DNA of 28,071 bases from a virus: positions 1 through 28,071 of IMG/VR virus record IMGVR_UViG_3300025138_000258; one strand, given 5' to 3'. The notes beneath the pieces were generated by a model. The model saw only the letters and a list, made by a program, of their open reading frames with translations, searched no databases and was not told where the DNA came from. Shown here one piece after another: positions 4,301-19,277 of the stretch. The translations under genes and the position numbers were made by a program. How positions within the stretch are numbered: the stretch's first letter is position 1; each line of letters starts with the position of its first letter.

Positions 4301-6269
4301 GCACGACCTAGATAAATGGAAGTCCCGCTGCTACACCGCTGCGCTTGAGGCGCATGATCGCGGTTGGAATATCATGCCGCTCTCTCTCTCAAGCAAGACG
4401 CCTTTGCTTGGCTGGATCGACTGGCAAACGAACCGCGTGACCGACGACATGATAGACGATTGGTTCACCGAGGGGGTGAAGACTAAGTCGGGCCATATCG
4501 TGAAGTATTTTAACATCGGCCTAATCACTGGCGAGCTATCAGGCGTGGTCGCTGTCGACTGCGATAACGAGGACGCCATTAAGTACGCAGAGAAGCACGG
4601 TCTAGCCAGTCCTTATAGGGTGAGCACTCAGAAGGGCGCACACTTTTACTTCAAGCACCCACGAGAGGGCGCACGGTTTGCTAACAAGGTAGGCAGCAAT
4701 GCGCGTGACTGGCCCCAAGTCGAGGGATTAGATTTCCGAGGTGACGGCGGGTTCGTTGTCATGCCGCCTAGCATTAAGGTGAAAGATGATGTTGTCGAAC
4801 ATGAGTATGCGTTCGACACAACCGCTGACTTCGACGACATAGACTTACACGTTTGGAAGGGTGCCGTCTCTGAGCGCACCGACGACGAGTTCAGCTTTGA
4901 TACGCTCGACCTGTCAGGCGTGAGCCTTCACAATCCCGACGAACATGTGAGCATTTGGGATCAGACGAAGGTGCGTGTCGCACACTTGGGCCGCAAGCTA
5001 GAGGATGGCGATGGCACGGATGCGCTCATGGTCAGGTATGTCGGGCAGAAGGTGCGACAAGGCCAAACAGGCGATGACTTAGTCGGCATGGCTAAAGGTT
5101 TCTACGACGAGTTTTTTAATCCGGCAGCCTACACAGAGGATGAAACCGCAAGGTGGATCGCTACCAAAATTCGCAGCGCAGTCGACATGGATCGACGCAA
5201 CTACCCCACTGACTATGATGCTAATGGCGAGCGGATCAAGGTCGAGAAGGAACAGATACGACTGGGCAGGCTCAAGCCCATCCACTCATCAGACATTGAT
5301 CGACTGATCGACAGCATAGGTGATACAGAATACTACGCTGACCCGCTCATCCCTGCGGCCACGATCACGCAAGTCGTAGGTTACAATGGTCACGGCAAGT
5401 CTTTCTTCTTGCAAGCCCTGCTGACCTCAATGGCTGCGGGCAAAGAATTGTTTGGCCCGTACCAAACCAAGCCCGCAAAAATTCTGTATCTCGACTACGA
5501 TAATCCCAGCCGTACTATCCTGTATCGTTTTAAAAATTTCGTGAAGATGTTTGGCGACACCTCTGACAAATTTAACATGTGGTCGCCAGCCCTAATCAGT
5601 GCCGAGGATGGTGGGGAGATGAGCCTTGCGACTGAGGACGGCTTTCGGCTGCTAGGCGAATGGCTAGAAGCGATCAAGCCAGACGTAGTCGTGATCGACA
5701 CCGTGCGTAATGCTTTCGGTGGGCTGGAAGAAGCGAGTGCAAGCGAGTGGTTCAAAGTCAATCACGTAGCCAAGTCGATCCGCAATAAGTTCAACGCATC
5801 CGTGATCATGGTGCATCACAGAAACAAACCCGGCGAGGGTGGCATGGGTCGAGAGGCTGGCTCGACTGCCCAGCTTACAGACATCGACACGCAGATCATG
5901 GTCACGCAAGTGTTCCGGCACAAGGCCGAGGCGAAAGCCAAGGCTGGGTTGCTCGACGCAGAGATAGAGATGTACGACATGACGGGGGCAGCACACACGC
6001 CCTTTGGCTATCTTGATAAACGACTGCGACCCGACAGCCGCTTACGCATGGTCAGCCAGATAAGTTTCGGCAAGGTCAGACAGACCACAGAACTTCACGA
6101 GACACATTATATTGGATGGGCTGAGAGCCTACTCGACGGTTCGCAGTACGTCGTAAGCACAGCAAGCCTCAAGCAAAAAGCCGCGCACTACGCTGGTACT
6201 GGAATGTCGGTTGATGACGTGAGCCGCAAGCTAAATCTCCCAGCCTACGAGGTGCGGCGATGGGTGTGA
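4278..6269 (+). CDS. primase-polymerase / RepA-like helicase fusion
   Basis: This 663-residue replication protein has a bifunctional primase-polymerase (Prim-Pol) domain at about 15-190. The acidic pair D94 and D96 is in VAVDCDN, His122 is in the STQKGAHFYF strand, and DFRGDGGFVVMPPS follows at 152-165, all in the usual order. A RecA-like (AAA_25/RepA) ATPase spans about 340-590, with Walker A at 368-375 (GYNGHGKS), Walker B Asp474 in VVVIDT and a VHHRNK sensor strand. The last 25 residues read as a small HTH. Together these would prime and unwind phage DNA. The start overlaps the Cro-like gene. The end overlaps the ATG at 6260. Confidence 0.88.
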   Translation: MTGNKLTEHDLDKWKSRCYTAALEAHDRGWNIMPLSLSSKTPLLGWIDWQTNRVTDDMIDDWFTEGVKTKSGHIVKYFNIGLITGELSGVVAVDCDNEDAIKYAEKHGLASPYRVSTQKGAHFYFKHPREGARFANKVGSNARDWPQVEGLDFRGDGGFVVMPPSIKVKDDVVEHEYAFDTTADFDDIDLHVWKGAVSERTDDEFSFDTLDLSGVSLHNPDEHVSIWDQTKVRVAHLGRKLEDGDGTDALMVRYVGQKVRQGQTGDDLVGMAKGFYDEFFNPAAYTEDETARWIATKIRSAVDMDRRNYPTDYDANGERIKVEKEQIRLGRLKPIHSSDIDRLIDSIGDTEYYADPLIPAATITQVVGYNGHGKSFFLQALLTSMAAGKELFGPYQTKPAKILYLDYDNPSRTILYRFKNFVKMFGDTSDKFNMWSPALISAEDGGEMSLATEDGFRLLGEWLEAIKPDVVVIDTVRNAFGGLEEASASEWFKVNHVAKSIRNKFNASVIMVHHRNKPGEGGMGREAGSTAQLTDIDTQIMVTQVFRHKAEAKAKAGLLDAEIEMYDMTGAAHTPFGYLDKRLRPDSRLRMVSQISFGKVRQTTELHETHYIGWAESLLDGSQYVVSTASLKQKAAHYAGTGMSVDDVSRKLNLPAYEVRRWV

Positions 6270-12268: not shown

Positions 12269-12286
12269 TGTCACAGATGTGTGACA
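12269..12286. promoter_or_regulatory. perfect 18-bp palindrome, operator-like
   Basis: TGTCACAGATGTGTGACA has two perfect 7-bp arms around GATG. It overlaps the last codons of the 60-residue gene and lies upstream of the 12234/12127 starts. Its core recurs at 4022-4033, and a related palindrome with the same GATG spacer is at 20794-20809. It is probably a binding site of a phage regulator controlling leftward transcription. Confidence 0.55.
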
Positions 12287-12453
12287 TGCGCAAGCCGTCG
12301 CATGACAGATTGCACTTTTAGTTTGTCGGACTTACGAATACCTAACCGCCGACACTCCCAGTACACCCTCACATACCAGCTTAGTCGGTGCGACTTATCG
12401 CACCAACCGAACCAGTAGCTAGGCACTCGTGCTACTTTCTTGCCTCTCTTCAT
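12271..12453 (-). CDS. small basic protein after the CobT-like gene
   Basis: This 60-residue, strongly basic and aromatic protein (MKRGKKVARVPSYWFGW start) runs from ATG 12453 in an ATGA overlap with the CobT-like stop, so it is translationally coupled to it. It contains WCDKSHRLSWYVRVYWECRR and ends HVTHL. Many Arg/Lys/Trp suggest nucleic-acid binding or packing against an acidic partner such as the CobT-like linker; the latter is speculation. Its last codons carry the 12269-12286 palindrome. Confidence 0.6.
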   Translation of the reverse strand: MKRGKKVARVPSYWFGWCDKSHRLSWYVRVYWECRRLGIRKSDKLKVQSVMRRLAHVTHL

Positions 12454-15137
12454 ATGCTAGAGTTACGTTTCGTTGTGCTGTTGATCAGTATGCTTTGATC
12501 TGGCAACGCCCGACCCAACATCAACTTGACGACCTCGTCGATGTAAGTCTTGCCGAACTGATCCATGTCATCGACTGTCACGTACTTGGGGTAGTATTGC
12601 TTGACGCTATCGTCGAGCATACCAAGGCCCATCACGTCAATGCCACGGAACAAGCACCACTCCACTGCATCGCGTGTGTATTGATGCACGCAACGTGTAT
12701 CACTGTGATACGCTGGCTGCCCGTCAGACAAGACGAACAGTATCTTCTTCTCTTCCTCACGCTGATACAAACGCTTGCCTGCCCACAAGATCGCGTCACC
12801 ATCGGCATTGGCACCGCCACCACGACGTTCAATCGTACCCATGCTTGAGCGACATGCGCCCATGCTGTCATCGAAGTCTTTGAACTGCCACATCCAGATC
12901 GGATTGTACCTACCATACTGCGTGGCCCCCCGCACGACGTGCTCACTGTGCGGCTGGTCGTGAACCCACACAGTGTGATGACCCAAGACCTCAAGCGGCA
13001 CACCGACTGGCGCAAGTGCCTCTGCCACAGCAATCGTGATCTGCTGCGCCATCGTGTCCTTGCCGCCACCCATGCTGCCTGACATGTCGATCAAGATAGA
13101 CAACGCCGTGTTCAAGTTTAGCTCGTCGACCTTGTTCCTGAACACGTTGTTCTTGAGGTTGACGATCTTGGACACGTTACGTCGCACGTCCAGCTTGCCA
13201 GTGCGCTTGCTGTTTTCCCAGTATGTACGTGACATGGCCGTGACCACACGCTCTAGCTTACGTCGCACAGTGCCGACGCTTGCAGACACGGCGTTCTTGC
13301 TCTCGTTGTACCACACCCTGCCGTACCGCTTAGTCTCCGCATCATCCGTAATCTCCCTGCGTGATACCCATTTGTCTGCACTAGGGTCGAGGATAATGTA
13401 GCCTCGGCCACCATTCTGCTGCTTCATCTCGTTGACCTCGCGCTCCATCGCTTCTTGTAGACCCGGTTCGATTGGCTCTGGCTGCTTGATCGACTTAGGA
13501 TCGAACGGCTTAGGGTCTGGCCCTACGTCTGCTCGTCCTGTGAGGTCGTCGTCGTCGTCGTCTGGGCCGTCGGTGTCACGACCGCCGTCGTTTCTCTGCA
13601 TTTCGTGATTGCTCTCGTTGGGTTCGTCCGAGCCATCGCCATCGTCGCCTTCGCCATCGGGGCCATCTGTTTTACCTTCGTCGTCGACACCCTCATCCAC
13701 TCCATCGTCGTCTCCATCGTCTACATCTCCCTCAGTATCTTCATTGCCTTCTTCACTTCCCTCGTCGTCACCCCCAGCGTCTTCGCCATCGTCTGCATCT
13801 TCCTCTCCTGTATCTGCTTGTGCATCGCCATCATCTTCTGATGTGTCTTGCCCCCCATCATTACCCTGTTCATCGCTTTCGTCGCCGTCTTCGTCGACTT
13901 CTTCGTCGTCGTTAGTCGCCCCTGGATTGTCACCGTCCCCTTCTTCACCGACATTTTTGCCATCCCCTTGATTTGATTCATCTTCTTCATCCCCGGCGTC
14001 GTTTCCGGGTTCTACCGGGTCGTCGGTTCCGTCGTCCGGGGAGCCTTCATCCCCTTCGTCGTCGCCTTTGTCGTCCTCTCCGTCTGTATCGCTATCGCTA
14101 TCGCTATCGCCTGCACCATCCTCTCCGTCTGGTTCATCTTCGCCATCTCCCTCACCGTCAGACCCGTCGCCTTCGCCTTCGCCCTTGGGATTGTCTTCGT
14201 CTCGCTGCTGCTCATCTGTTCCCTCGCTGTCGCTGTCGTCGTCGTCCTTGTCGTCACCTTTGCCCTTGCCATCACCATCCTCACACGGTGGGCCGTCACC
14301 TTCGATAATGATTTCGATTTCTTGCTCTTGCTGCGGCCCCTGTGGTGGCTGCGGTGGCAGAGGTGGGTTCTCTTTCTCCCACTCGTCGCGCTTGATGCGA
14401 ATGACCGTCTTCATGTAGGCGTTGGCAATCTTCTGCGCCAACTTGAACGCTTCGATGCTGCCATTGTACGCCACGTACTTGTCGACCTTGCCCAAGTCCG
14501 TAACACCGTGCGGTATGTTCATCACCTGATCGACTATCTTCTCGACCTTGTTCCGTACCTTCTTGGGCAACAGGTCCAGTGCTTCCTCGTTGCTGGGGTC
14601 GGGGTAGCCCAACCGACGACGACCTTCCCATGTAATCGCAACTGGGCCGACCTTGCCAAAGTCGTTCACGATGTCGGGGTTGGCCGGATACACCTCGTCG
14701 ATGAACTTGCGTGTCACCTCACGCGCAGTCTTGTCTATCGACTGTGCGATGCCACCGTACAGTACCGTGCCACCGTGTTCGATACGCACGTCTTCCATAC
14801 CATTAGCGAGTGAAGTCGTGAGCCACTTGTTGTCTATCTTGGCCTGCTCGAACAACGGTTGCAGACGGTTGAAGTCTGACAATTGCTTGTGCAACGCCTC
14901 GTGTCCGGCGTAGCCTGCAAGTACCAGTGCCGCACGCTTAGTCACCTTGGCATCCATAGGGATAGACGGAAGGTTCACGTCGCTGCCGTTGGTGAACGCA
15001 CCCTCACCCGCAAACGTGACACGAGTAGCGAAGTCAGTCGACACGGCCTTGACCGCAAGCGACGTGGCTTCCATAAGCTCTTCGCCTGTCATCACTACGT
15101 CGGCAAGGTCTGCTGTTTCTGAGATATATTTAGTCAT
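12450..15137 (-). CDS. cobT: CobT-like VWA protein with a giant acidic linker
   Basis: In this 895-residue protein the N-terminal part (1-250) has HEALH at 79-83, an HExxH motif, and NGMEDVRIE at 112-120, both typical of CobT-type proteins. A linker at about 272-545 is mostly Asp, Glu, Gly and Ser. The C-terminal VWA domain has the MIDAS start DMSGSM at 684-689, NADGDAILWA near 777 and LSDGQP near 803, the same order as cobaltochelatase CobT. In cobalamin synthesis CobT with CobS and CobN inserts cobalt; no CobN is present here. The family partner, a CobS-like AAA+ protein, is three genes upstream. The linker is much longer than usual. The start ATG 15137 has GAGGAG. Confidence 0.85.
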   Translation of the reverse strand: MTKYISETADLADVVMTGEELMEATSLAVKAVSTDFATRVTFAGEGAFTNGSDVNLPSIPMDAKVTKRAALVLAGYAGHEALHKQLSDFNRLQPLFEQAKIDNKWLTTSLANGMEDVRIEHGGTVLYGGIAQSIDKTAREVTRKFIDEVYPANPDIVNDFGKVGPVAITWEGRRRLGYPDPSNEEALDLLPKKVRNKVEKIVDQVMNIPHGVTDLGKVDKYVAYNGSIEAFKLAQKIANAYMKTVIRIKRDEWEKENPPLPPQPPQGPQQEQEIEIIIEGDGPPCEDGDGKGKGDDKDDDDSDSEGTDEQQRDEDNPKGEGEGDGSDGEGDGEDEPDGEDGAGDSDSDSDTDGEDDKGDDEGDEGSPDDGTDDPVEPGNDAGDEEDESNQGDGKNVGEEGDGDNPGATNDDEEVDEDGDESDEQGNDGGQDTSEDDGDAQADTGEEDADDGEDAGGDDEGSEEGNEDTEGDVDDGDDDGVDEGVDDEGKTDGPDGEGDDGDGSDEPNESNHEMQRNDGGRDTDGPDDDDDDLTGRADVGPDPKPFDPKSIKQPEPIEPGLQEAMEREVNEMKQQNGGRGYIILDPSADKWVSRREITDDAETKRYGRVWYNESKNAVSASVGTVRRKLERVVTAMSRTYWENSKRTGKLDVRRNVSKIVNLKNNVFRNKVDELNLNTALSILIDMSGSMGGGKDTMAQQITIAVAEALAPVGVPLEVLGHHTVWVHDQPHSEHVVRGATQYGRYNPIWMWQFKDFDDSMGACRSSMGTIERRGGGANADGDAILWAGKRLYQREEEKKILFVLSDGQPAYHSDTRCVHQYTRDAVEWCLFRGIDVMGLGMLDDSVKQYYPKYVTVDDMDQFGKTYIDEVVKLMLGRALPDQSILINSTTKRNSSI
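13520..14310 (-). repeat. low-complexity DNA encoding the acidic linker
   Basis: The coding strand is a long run of GAY/GAR/GGY/AGY codons giving mostly Asp/Glu/Gly/Ser, with short imperfect units such as GATAGC GATAGC GATAGC (near 14093-14110). Long open frames appear on several strands here because of the composition, but only the CobT-like frame continues into conserved domains. Such tracts are prone to slippage-driven length change. Confidence 0.8.
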
Positions 15138-15477
15138 ATTCTATGTTCTCCTCGATTTCGTGGGTTTTTTGTTCAGTGATCTCGGCCTCGGCCAGCACGA
15201 ACAGTTCGTGTGCCTTCTCCTCGGCGCTGCCTTCGTCGAGCGCAAACACCGAGATCGTTGAAGTGACCTCGGCAACAATGCAGACATCGTACTGTTTGGG
15301 AGGGTAGGTTTCAGTCACCTCGTAACTCACAGAAAACTGGCAATCGTTGTCACCGTGGTTTAAAGTCTCGTCCCATATGTACTCGTTACACGCTACGTCT
15401 TTGGCATCATCGACGCTGGCTGCCTTAACGTCGTTGAGCACGGCGATCTGCTTTACTATCACTTGGTAGTTCGGCAT
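15130..15477 (-). CDS. tandem DpnD/PcfM-like small protein
   Basis: This 115-residue protein starts at ATG 15477 (AAGGAG upstream, TGATG junction with the previous gene) and overlaps the CobT-like start by eight bases. It reads as two copies of one fold: YQVIVKQIAVLNDVKAASVD (from about residue 4) and YDVCIVAEVTSTISVFALDE (from about 62). Each has a strand pair, then a helix with a regular Ala pattern, then a short strand. This pattern resembles the DpnD/PcfM family of small phage/plasmid proteins, whose role is unknown. It is placed between the CobS-like and CobT-like genes. Confidence 0.72.
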   Translation of the reverse strand: MPNYQVIVKQIAVLNDVKAASVDDAKDVACNEYIWDETLNHGDNDCQFSVSYEVTETYPPKQYDVCIVAEVTSTISVFALDEGSAEEKAHELFVLAEAEITEQKTHEIEENIEYD

Positions 15478-15674
15478 CAGTAAAACTCCTTGTTAGTGTC
15501 CTCGACGTGAAAGAACCGTGGCGATAGTTCGTTGCGGTCGAGCAATTCCATGACCACCTCTGGCGTTTGGTAGAGGAAGCAATCGACTAGATGCTTATTG
15601 GTCACGCCCCTCTCACGCAGTTCGTCGATCCACTCTGCAACGCCGTCTGTTGTGCGCGTGCTTATCGTTTCCAT
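15477..15674 (-). CDS. unknown small protein between CobS- and CobT-like genes
   Basis: This 65-residue protein starts at ATG 15674 (METISTRTTDG), overlapping the upstream TGA by one base and preceded by AGGAGGAA; the longer frame to 15719 is less likely. It is helical, with DGVAEWIDELRERGVTNKHL and VVMELLDRNELSPRFFHVED. No metal or catalytic motif. Tight coupling on both sides suggests it is made in step with its neighbours of the CobS/CobT-like set. Confidence 0.68.
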   Translation of the reverse strand: METISTRTTDGVAEWIDELRERGVTNKHLVDCFLYQTPEVVMELLDRNELSPRFFHVEDTNKEFY

Positions 15675-16123
15675 CAGTATTCCTCCTTCTCGACTATGAA
15701 AGTTTGTTCGTGGTTGCATACGGCGTCTGCCATTCGGAAACGCTCGCGTGCCAATGCTTGTGCGCTCTCTTCGCTGAAGGCTCTAACCTTCGTCCACTTG
15801 TAGTAGGTGCCTTCGACTAAGACGTTGTAGTCGATCAATGAAACCTCTTGGTCGTCCTGATCCATGTGATCTGGCCGAAAGCGTCCGACGCTCCACGACA
15901 CAACGCTGCCGAAGCCAAGGCTGTCTTGATGATCCCACTTGCCGAGCGTGTAGCCGTAGTTGTCCCGTAACGCAGCGACAAACTCACCCGCTTCACCGAG
16001 GCACTCGGCACTGATGGCTATGCCTTCGTGAAAGCCCCGACCCTTGTATGGTCCGTAGAATTTGAGGGTGTCAGTTCCCCAGCCCCCTGCGATGCCTTTG
16101 AACTCTTCGATTGTTGGTAACAT
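15674..16123 (-). CDS. unknown protein with a C-terminal DpnD/PcfM-like fold
   Basis: This 149-residue protein runs from ATG 16123, which has a strong AAAGGAG site; an in-frame ATG at 16165 overlapping the CobS-like stop (ATGA) would add 14 residues. Residues 1-95 are an aromatic, Gly-rich beta domain (KFYGPYKGRGFHEGIAIS). Residues 99-149 (YNVLVEGTYYKWTKVRAFSE onward) match the two repeats of the 15130-15477 protein. First gene after the CobS-like ATPase. No function known. Confidence 0.7.
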   Translation of the reverse strand: MLPTIEEFKGIAGGWGTDTLKFYGPYKGRGFHEGIAISAECLGEAGEFVAALRDNYGYTLGKWDHQDSLGFGSVVSWSVGRFRPDHMDQDDQEVSLIDYNVLVEGTYYKWTKVRAFSEESAQALARERFRMADAVCNHEQTFIVEKEEY

Positions 16124-16161
16124 TATGTATCTCCTTTGGGTTTCGTTTGTTGGGTTGTCGC

Positions 16162-18204
16162 TCATAGCCCACCCCCGAATACAGTGCGGGCTAGTTCGTC
16201 GATGCGCTGCTGATTGTCAGCGGGCGCAGCGTCAGACACACACGTCTCGACTACCTCTTTCCATGCAGCGTTGTGCGTAAGGAAGGCAGTGAAGTGCATG
16301 TAGTATTGAGCCATCGCGTGCAGATTGCGGGGCGATATAGTCTGGCTCAGTTCACCGTTGATGAACGAGTTGCGAACCATCTGTGCGAAGGCCGCCATCT
16401 GGTCTGCCATCGTTGGGTTGAGGTCGGGATAGGCATCCTTGAGAAATTGTTTCTCGTCGTCTTCGTCGAGGTATCCCACCTCAATGAACGCGCCAAAGCG
16501 ATTGAGGAACGCAAGGTTCATAGGTCGCACGCCCTGATACCAACCGTGTTCGTCGCCCTGACCACGAGAGTTAGCCGTGCCTGCAAACATGAACAACGGG
16601 TGAGGCTTGACCAGTCGACCGCCATCCTCGGTCAAGGTCAGACCCTTGTTCTCCAAGGCACGTTGCAAGACGAACAACATGTCGGGACGACCCGCATCTA
16701 TCTCGTCAAGCAAGAACACCATCGGCTGCACCATAGCTTTAGGCAACATACCCTCAGAGAACTGCGACTTGGGCGCACCGTTCTCGACAACGATGTCCAC
16801 CGCACCAACGATGTCGGCACGCTCCATGTTGCTGTCCAGATTGAGACGTTCCATCGGGAAGCCAAGGCGTGCCTCGACTTGCTCGACGAACGAAGTCTTA
16901 CCTGTACCAGTGTGGCCGTGCATCCAGACGTGTTGACCGAACACCTTGGCAGTAAGGTACTTGATCAGATGGTGCATACGGAACTTGTATGTATGGTCAA
17001 TGTCTGGACACGAGGGGTGACGCACGATGTTGCTACTGTCGTCACGCCATACCAACGTAGGCACATCGAACTTCAGCTTGTTAGACTTGCGACCGTGTGC
17101 ATCGGTGAACAGGTTCCTCGCAGACTGCATCACGACTTCGTAGGTGAGGGTGCTACCGTCCACGTTGGCAGAGCCAGTGTGTCCGGCGATTGGCATGGAC
17201 GCTAGCTTCTCACGAGTGCGCTTAATCTCTGCGATGGCTTCGTGATACGCAGCGTTGACCTTGCGGAACTTGTCGACGTAACTACCCACGCCAGTGATGC
17301 TACCCGAACTGGCCTGTTGGATGAGAGCGTCAACCGCAGGCGACAGGCTAGGGTCAAGCGGCTCCGGCTCGTCGAACCGTTCGTACCCATCATCGTCGGC
17401 TGCCTCGACTACGGGTTCCGGGTCGGCTACCGGGGCCGCCACTTCAGGCTTTGCTTGGCCTGACATCACGGCAGTAACGAGGTTGCGAATATCCTCTGGG
17501 GCATCAGCATAGTTGAGATCAGGTGCGTCGATGTCCATGCGGTCAAGCAGCGTGTCGACTACAGGGTAAACCTCGTGGAAAAGAACGCCTGAGTATTTGC
17601 ACACCAACCTAGTAGCTTCGTCGAAGCCATGCGGAGTGTTTTGCGACTTCAGTCTTCCGTATGCTTCGAGATCGCCTATGAAGTGGTGATCCTTGTCAGC
17701 ATCATCATGGGTACTGTGCGAGTACCACATCACACGGCCCAGCAAGTATGCAGCGTGGCCTAAGTCTTGTATGCTGTGCTCGGTCAGCAGTCCTCGGATA
17801 GCAGCAGTGACCTCTGGCCCATCCAACATGTGAATGTGAAAGCCACGGCTTACGCCGCTGCCACGTTGAGCAGGCCGACATTTGTCGTCGTGTATGAACG
17901 CCGTCAACAACTGGTTCATCACGTTGCCTAGTCGATAGCCCTCGCTTGGCCGCGTGACCTCGCCAATAGCGTGAAGGATTACGTTGACGAGCACAGGCCA
18001 GAAGACCATGTCGGTGAGACGATTGACCGTCACGCCTGCCTTGTCTCGGAACTTCGCCTTGTCGTCGTCGGTGAAGCATTTCTCAATGACGTATCGAAAC
18101 TTCTTCTTGTACTCCTTCCTCGCTTCGTTCGCGTCTGCCATTGCTTGCAAGTTGATCATATCGTCGAGCATAACTTCGGCTTGTTTCGTGGTTAATTTAT
18201 ACAT
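16162..18204 (-). CDS. cobS: CobS-like AAA+ (MoxR-related) ATPase
   Basis: This 680-residue protein runs from ATG 18204 (AAGGAG 11 bases upstream). Walker A is at 430-437 (GHTGTGKT), followed by ERLNLDSNMERADIVG. Walker B is at 495-505 (MVFLLDEIDAG), then RPDMLFVLQRALE and FAGTANSRGQGD, with candidate arginine fingers near 569 in LNRFG. The order and spacing match cobaltochelatase CobS, which with CobT forms a chaperone-like ATPase ring. Typical CobS has about 330 residues; here about 400 extra N-terminal residues, partly acidic and disordered, precede the ATPase. Its likely partner is the CobT-like VWA protein three genes downstream. Confidence 0.87.
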   Translation of the reverse strand: MYKLTTKQAEVMLDDMINLQAMADANEARKEYKKKFRYVIEKCFTDDDKAKFRDKAGVTVNRLTDMVFWPVLVNVILHAIGEVTRPSEGYRLGNVMNQLLTAFIHDDKCRPAQRGSGVSRGFHIHMLDGPEVTAAIRGLLTEHSIQDLGHAAYLLGRVMWYSHSTHDDADKDHHFIGDLEAYGRLKSQNTPHGFDEATRLVCKYSGVLFHEVYPVVDTLLDRMDIDAPDLNYADAPEDIRNLVTAVMSGQAKPEVAAPVADPEPVVEAADDDGYERFDEPEPLDPSLSPAVDALIQQASSGSITGVGSYVDKFRKVNAAYHEAIAEIKRTREKLASMPIAGHTGSANVDGSTLTYEVVMQSARNLFTDAHGRKSNKLKFDVPTLVWRDDSSNIVRHPSCPDIDHTYKFRMHHLIKYLTAKVFGQHVWMHGHTGTGKTSFVEQVEARLGFPMERLNLDSNMERADIVGAVDIVVENGAPKSQFSEGMLPKAMVQPMVFLLDEIDAGRPDMLFVLQRALENKGLTLTEDGGRLVKPHPLFMFAGTANSRGQGDEHGWYQGVRPMNLAFLNRFGAFIEVGYLDEDDEKQFLKDAYPDLNPTMADQMAAFAQMVRNSFINGELSQTISPRNLHAMAQYYMHFTAFLTHNAAWKEVVETCVSDAAPADNQQRIDELARTVFGGGL

Positions 18205-18504: not shown

Positions 18505-18796
18505 CGTGGCTCTCCCATTTTTCCTCAGTCCATCTTTCCTGTTCAAGCTCCCACGCTCTTTCAAAGCTCTCGTTAAATGTGTGGAAGTTTGCGTCCTCGA
18601 AGGCGGCTCGTGCTGCCTCGAAGATTGCTTGCCCATCCCACCCCAAGTGTTGTGAGATGAGTACGCCCAACGCCTCTGCGTCCTTGACCTTGGCGGGTTC
18701 GGTGAACGCATTGTGTTTGTATGTGTCCAGCGCACAGTCGAACTCTGCCTTGGCCCTGTCGACCTCGTCGTATCTCGACGGCTCAGTGTTACTCAT
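18497..18796 (-). CDS. unknown acidic helical protein
   Basis: This 99-residue protein runs from ATG 18796, overlapping the end of the upstream gene by eight bases. The frame is open to 18904 but that part lies within the neighbour. It is almost wholly helical and aromatic (LGWDGQAIFEAARAAFEDAN, then FERAWELEQERWTEEKWE), with no cysteine or catalytic motif. In the leftward cluster; no family recognised. Confidence 0.68.
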   Translation of the reverse strand: MSNTEPSRYDEVDRAKAEFDCALDTYKHNAFTEPAKVKDAEALGVLISQHLGWDGQAIFEAARAAFEDANFHTFNESFERAWELEQERWTEEKWESHDD

Positions 18797-19277
18797 CGTC
18801 GCCATCCAATATGCAGAAGTCTTCGTCCTCAATGAATGTGATGGTGGCTGTTGCGATGCGGCCATCTTCGTTACGTGTAACGTGGACAGGATACCTTCCG
18901 TCACCGTACCCAGACGTTACGACTACGGCGTGACCCAAACCTAGCTCACCGCATTGGGCATCGCTGAGTGTGGCCTGACACGCGCCGTTGTAGCTGTACT
19001 CTCCGCTTGGTTTGTGTTTGATTTCCACGAAGCGTCCCGCTGCTTTCAAGGCGTTCATGTCGAGGCCGTACTTGGGGATCACGGTGCTGTACATTCTGAA
19101 GTCGCGGGGATATTGCAGTACGGTGTCGTCGCCGTCGTCTGTGCAACGCCACTCAGTAACTATGTGGTACTCGTTGCCTCCCCAGACGTGCAGATAACAG
19201 GGGTCGCCCAGCATAATCTGGCCGCTGTCTACATGTGCGTAACCGACATGCTCGACTTTGTTTACTGTGTCTTTCAT
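18789..19277 (-). CDS. DUF4241-like phage protein
   Basis: This 162-residue protein starts at ATG 19277 with TAAGGAG. It reads as a beta-rich protein opening with VDSGQIMLGDPCYL and later GLGHAVVVTSGYGDGRYPVH and EDGRIATATITF. The SGQI-GDPCYL and GYGDGxYPV blocks in this order are those I associate with DUF4241 proteins of phages and bacteria; their role is not established. The acidic end is DEDFCILDGDDE. It is coupled to the 368-residue gene upstream (4-base overlap) and to the 99-residue gene downstream. Confidence 0.75.
   Translation of the reverse strand: MKDTVNKVEHVGYAHVDSGQIMLGDPCYLHVWGGNEYHIVTEWRCTDDGDDTVLQYPRDFRMYSTVIPKYGLDMNALKAAGRFVEIKHKPSGEYSYNGACQATLSDAQCGELGLGHAVVVTSGYGDGRYPVHVTRNEDGRIATATITFIEDEDFCILDGDDE

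Follow-up and report, generated by a model that had tools for sequence, protein, structure and literature searches.

We analysed a 28-kb phage fragment, the 28,071-base virus record IMGVR_UViG_3300025138_000258 (hereafter, the window, meaning the whole stretch), which encodes integrase, prim-pol/AAA, terminase and portal genes, together with a dNMP kinase, a Cas4-type exonuclease, a Sak4-like protein and a LuxR-type regulator. Roseobacter phage CRP-810 yielded matches to 11 window proteins in corresponding order, and the window is therefore a CRP-810-like phage. The CRP-810 family (PMC11288001) has cobS-cobT, LuxR, integrase, prim-pol, Cas4-type nuclease and AAA ATPase genes in corresponding places, and by this shared gene set and order the window is a CRP-810-type phage, although identity in the CobS-like and CobT-like proteins was only 32-34%. 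The gene for the CobS-like protein (S) is followed by three small genes (sC, sB and sA), the gene for the CobT-like protein (T) and the gene for a basic protein (U; Table 1). The pair originally predicted here proved real, with both S and T matched by Pfam, PHROGs and NCBIfam models.

Table 1 Features of the S-T-U locus and a nearby gene, in window coordinates.
Feature	Position	Strand	Evidence or remark
U, basic 60-aa protein	12271-12453	-	ATGA overlap with T stop; conserved third gene
T, CobT-like, 895 aa	12450-15137	-	CobT_C, CobT, phrog_1576; both domains homologous to those of solved CobT
VWA MIDAS DMSGSM, T residues 684-689	13071-13088	-	Alignments
T N-terminal domain, predicted helix-strand-helix	14370-15137	-	AlphaFold2 pLDDT 95.3, pTM 0.91
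NGMEDVRIE, T residues 112-120, candidate third metal ligand	14778-14804	-	E115, D116, E120 invariant
HEALH, T residues 79-83, zinc-peptidase-like motif	14889-14903	-	H79, E80, H83 invariant
sA, 115 aa	15130-15477	-	Partial relative in L001, weak in L147
sB, 65 aa	15477-15674	-	Corrected start; own Shine-Dalgarno GAAGGAGG...TGATG
sC	15674-16165	-	Not conserved between S and T; homologues elsewhere in other phages
S, CobS-like MoxR-clade AAA+ ATPase, 680 aa	16162-18204	-	TIGR01650, phrog_249, AAA_5, 10-way alignment
S Walker A GHTGTGKT, residues 430-437	16894-16917	-	10-way S alignment
DUF4241-like protein	18789-19277		C-terminus vs DUF4241 2.1e-6, phrog_5209; weak relatives L004, L009/L010

The CobS-like ATPase and the CobT-like protein

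S matched the CobS model TIGR01650 (E = 5.8e-50), phrog_249 (2.5e-58) and AAA_5 (1.7e-15), and its structure matches included NorQ and CbbQ. It has the Walker A, Walker B and sensor motifs of the MoxR/CobS clade (G430, H431, T432, G435, K436 and T437 being invariant, among the Walker A/B residues, in a 10-way alignment), and the LLDEID and TANSRGQGD motifs were confirmed, but its TIGR01650 score (170 bits) lay far below the NCBIfam equivalog cut-off of 559. The long N-terminal extension that had been noticed is present, although its excess over solved CobS is approximately 355-360 residues rather than 400 (in the alignment, residue 399 of S falls opposite residue 40 of a chain of 328 aa). The first 400 residues were predicted to fold at a pLDDT of 63, and a fold search with them returned no match in the PDB. 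The extension also contains a C-x-P-xx-RGSGVS-x-GYH-like stretch (residues ~107-124, window positions ~17833-17886) that is conserved, by alignment, in the closest S proteins.

T comprises an N-terminal domain (residues 1-256), an acidic linker (~260-600) and a C-terminal VWA domain with a MIDAS, and it matched CobT_C (7.1e-29), the CobT N-terminal family PF06213 (5.7e-6) and phrog_1576 (1.4e-47). Its score against the CobT equivalog model TIGR01651 was 80 bits, versus an NCBIfam cut-off of 759. A VWA protein with a MIDAS is thus linked to the ATPase, the arrangement of a MoxR AAA+/VWA pair, and the T profile also matched NorD. All of the sequence blocks initially named in S and T are present (in T: GHEALH, EDVRIE, DMSGSM, DGDAILWA and LSDG), but one of them, HExxH, turned out not to belong to the bacterial CobT core. 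Relatives of the pair were collected through S, a scan of IMG/VR with T as a single protein having returned no match.

In the AlphaFold2 model of the N-terminal domain, HExxH is placed on a helix spanning residues 67-86, preceded by three short strands, and EDxRxE on a second helix (residues 105-126). Pfam CobT was matched by all 46 members of a viral N-domain set. A Foldseek search of the PDB gave no significant match to a solved structure (several M32 carboxypeptidases were in the top 50, all with E > 1), leaving a zincin fold putative for this domain. In BFVD, a cyanophage 'Metallopeptidase' was matched weakly, and all further matches were to other viral CobT/VWA proteins; Pfam peptidase families did not match the domain, and no member of the DUF2201_N metallopeptidase-VWA family reached threshold among 120 Pseudomonadota genomes searched for profile comparison.

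A putative metal site distinguishes phage CobT-like proteins

A search of 249 genomes yielded 30 bona fide CobTs that passed the TIGR01651 cut-off, and the 22 remaining after dereplication were aligned with 55 dereplicated viral CobT-like proteins. HExxH was present in 53 of the 55 viral proteins, and HExxH together with ED in 52, versus none of the 22 bona fide CobTs in either case. The latter mostly have S-M-A-L-K/R and EQ at the corresponding places, with Gln or Ala at the D116 position in every one (22 of 22). Among the 46 viral N-domains, whose identity to that of the window fell to as low as 22%, H79, E80, H83, E115, D116 and E120 were among only 15 invariant columns, and HExxH with a downstream glutamate on another helix (E115 or E120) is the arrangement of the gluzincins. 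The N-domain of a solved CobT (9uka) is homologous to that of T (profile alignment, i-Evalue 9.5e-9) and has no HExxH at the equivalent place. In these alignments, it is HExxH/ED that sets phage CobT-like proteins apart from true CobT, and its conservation strongly suggests a putative zinc site in T. We judge a metal site in T to be likely and peptidase activity to be plausible, if somewhat short of probable.

HExxH is missing in two phage relatives, nickie and BUCTxx99, and the phage ICP2 lacks the E of ED. In a tree of the VWA region, canonical CobT was split from all other proteins (support 1.0), and nickie fell within a motif-bearing clade (support 0.96), so the HExxH site can also be lost independently. 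Because the tree is unrooted, loss of the site in CobT, as opposed to gain by the others, would be an inference.

A conserved third gene, U, follows T

Homologues of U lay directly after T in 58 loci (by iterated profile), and in 37 of 49 whole records U occurred once per genome; among the CRP-810-type records without U, three end before or inside T. When U was used as bait in IMG/VR (with two sub-alignments), 15 loci were recovered, and T was immediately upstream in all 15. The U proteins have a median pI of 10.7, with no match in Pfam; the best PHROGs match, obtained for 2 of the 22 members, reached just 0.0047. CRP-810 itself (GenBank OR671924, our L011) has an unannotated U homologue at positions 5635-5817, the end of which is overlapped by gp08, annotated from position 5804. 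The conserved unit in the CRP-810-type phage group is thus S-T-U, and the conserved small partner gene adjoins the pair after T, not between S and T.

CobN, ribonucleotide reductase and genomic context

The absence of CobN was confirmed for the window record, itself a fragment, and extended to related virus records (0 of 48, comprising 9 named phage accessions plus IMG/VR contigs, many of them fragmentary), but it is not a new oddity, phage cobST without cobN having already been described (PMC8651126). That study proposed that viral CobST makes use of the host's CobN and raises cobalamin synthesis, and called the 'peptidase' annotation of cyanophage cobT mistaken; on our conservation data, the annotation may be nearer the truth. 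No ribonucleotide reductase was found in the window or in the CRP-810-type records tested (7 of 49 records had one, none of them CRP-810-type), and a rationale based on B12-dependent ribonucleotide reductase is therefore without support there. Genes for DNA polymerase, primase, ligase, gp46 or the clamp neighbour the pair in isolate phages. On an SSU5-like E. coli phage-plasmid, a T with HEVAH and NALEDVFIE is encoded close to dnaE, and CobN had no match in an E. coli control genome. We regard a non-cobalamin function of the S/T pair as quite probable. Separately, the cobT of CRP-810 has been described (PMC11288001) as if it worked like an unrelated CobT, the lower-ligand phosphoribosyltransferase, a name collision between two CobT proteins.

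Compared with CobS and CobT of the aerobic cobaltochelatase (TIGR01650/TIGR01651; PDB 9uka series, 21vt and 21vu), the window pair has in common the AAA+ core, the CobT N-domain, the acidic linker and the MIDAS-type VWA blocks. It differs in the HExxH/ED residues of T, the extension of S (~355 aa), the extra gene U, the lack of a detected CobN and scores far below the equivalog cut-offs. NorQ/NorD, RavA/ViaA and other MoxR-VWA chaperones share the combination of AAA+ and VWA proteins, and the same ring-and-partner mechanics are expected, but the N-domain of T, with its HExxH, is different. The same linked pair is found in other phage cobST loci (CRP-810 type, the 'peptidase' plus cobS of T4-like cyanophages, SSU5-type phage-plasmids and haloarchaeal tailed viruses), which were previously read as auxiliary metabolic genes (PMC8651126).

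A proposed S-T-U machine and its alternatives

On balance, and with restrained confidence, we favour a reading of the sequences and models in which S, T and U would form an ATP-driven MoxR AAA+/VWA machine that has a zincin-like domain and acts on protein clients, not a cobaltochelatase. By analogy with CobS, MoxR and NorQ, S would assemble into an AAA+ ring, on which T would dock via its VWA/MIDAS domain and acidic linker, with mechanics like those of NorQ/NorD (PMC13036017) and the cobaltochelatase structures. The N-domain of T may use H79, H83 and one glutamate of the EDxRxE helix to bind a metal ion and would most likely cleave peptides engaged by S/T. U, translated from the T stop codon, is probably an adaptor or a substrate. 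Because the pair is near replication genes in other phages, a replication or DNA-processing protein would be a first guess at the client. The initial preference for a phage AAA+/VWA machine over a cobaltochelatase has held up, on the absence of CobN from 48 related records, many of them fragments, and of ribonucleotide reductase from the CRP-810-type records tested, and on the zinc-peptidase-like site in T. Only tentatively do we extend this to the broader proposal that phage 'CobST' could be a widespread, unrecognised ATP-dependent metalloprotease (an AAA+ ring, a VWA domain for recognition and, for catalysis, a zincin-like domain), that U could be its dedicated small partner in phages of the CRP-810 type and that CobT could be a relative whose catalytic site was lost.

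MoxR/VWA pairs are established as remodelling and metal-insertion chaperones (PMC13036017, PMC7159879), and S/T could, like NorQ/NorD or RavA/ViaA, be a chaperone without proteolytic activity, in which the HExxH metal could be structural or regulatory, or destined for insertion into a client. The matches of S to NorQ/CbbQ structures and of the T profile to NorD are consistent with such a role, as is retention of the pair in the two relatives without HExxH. We nevertheless consider it rather unlikely, in view of the catalytic-type residue E80, which does not vary among the 46 aligned viral N-domains and would be dispensable for mere metal binding.

Marine roseobacters often make vitamin B12, and S/T are homologous to CobS/CobT over all domains, the N-domain included, with the NxDG and SDG blocks of the VWA domain common to T and CobT. 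These points favour the proposal, already in print, that viral CobST acts as an auxiliary metabolic gene pair, supplying an AAA+ motor to host CobN and thereby raising cobalamin synthesis (PMC8651126). Against it, the scores with the CobS/CobT equivalog models are only weak, HExxH/ED is conserved in phages and occurs in none of the 22 bona fide CobTs, an E. coli phage-plasmid carries a T of this type whereas the E. coli control is without CobN, and the window and the CRP-810-type records tested have no ribonucleotide reductase. We accordingly give cobalamin synthesis a low probability, well below that of the S-T-U machine.

Small genes between S and T

The original prediction also placed the three small genes within the machine. 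They exist and overlap (S/sC by ATGA, sC/sB and sB/sA by TGATG, and sA/T by 8 nt), although the start of sB is most likely at 15674 rather than 15719, giving 65 and not 80 residues. Same-strand neighbours in the window genome overlap or are at most 2 nt apart in 17 of 29 pairs; with overlapping starts the rule, coupling at the S-to-T junctions says little by itself. Across 75 viral loci with S followed by T (a set that includes near-identical contigs), the gap between the two genes had a median of 57 nt and in 55 loci was at most 100 nt, which leaves no room for three genes, while the 1,028 nt of the window was the largest; compared with the other phage cobST pairs, the window has three extra small genes there. 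Relatives of sC were found near terminase genes and, in two contigs, upstream of S; sA had a partial relative between S and T in one locus (L001) and a weak relative in another (L147); and sB had none among the fetched loci. The five-gene order thus gave way, on synteny, to conservation of U after T, which had been overlooked. In related phages, where absence of the small genes and unlinking of S and T had both been named as outcomes that would count against the prediction, the small genes are absent in nearly all, but S and T are still linked. By these comparisons, sC, sB and sA look like an insertion rather than a conserved core, and a single complex of S, sC, sB, sA and T is highly improbable despite the overlap at every junction, with synteny counting against the three small proteins as subunits. 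DpnD-PcfM-like assignments for sA and sC (E = 0.58 and 0.051, respectively) did not reach the Pfam cut-off and were rejected.

Significance and further observations

Many phage surveys count cobS, and the adjoining cobT, as vitamin B12 genes, and cobS is a cyanophage core gene without an established function. If the zinc-peptidase site of T works, such auxiliary metabolic gene counts would be wrong, and phages would possess an AAA+ machine for proteolysis or remodelling that is as yet unstudied. The reading makes a sharp prediction at the level of residues (E80, H79 and H83), and the hidden gene U could provide a handle on the client.

Bacterial contigs added several observations. S-T pairs without HExxH were present on Brachymonas, Burkholderiales and Parashewanella contigs (L024, L025 and L026), with CobN not found in those assemblies; these are perhaps another non-cobalamin CobST lineage. 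In three further bacterial loci (L028, L029 and L031), a T with HExxH lies 2-5 kb from S, and CobN is encoded elsewhere in two of the three genomes. Finally, a contig in a Neomarinimicrobiota metagenome-assembled genome (L021) and an IMG/VR contig (L056) appear to represent almost the same phage, and that assembled genome therefore probably contains phage sequence.
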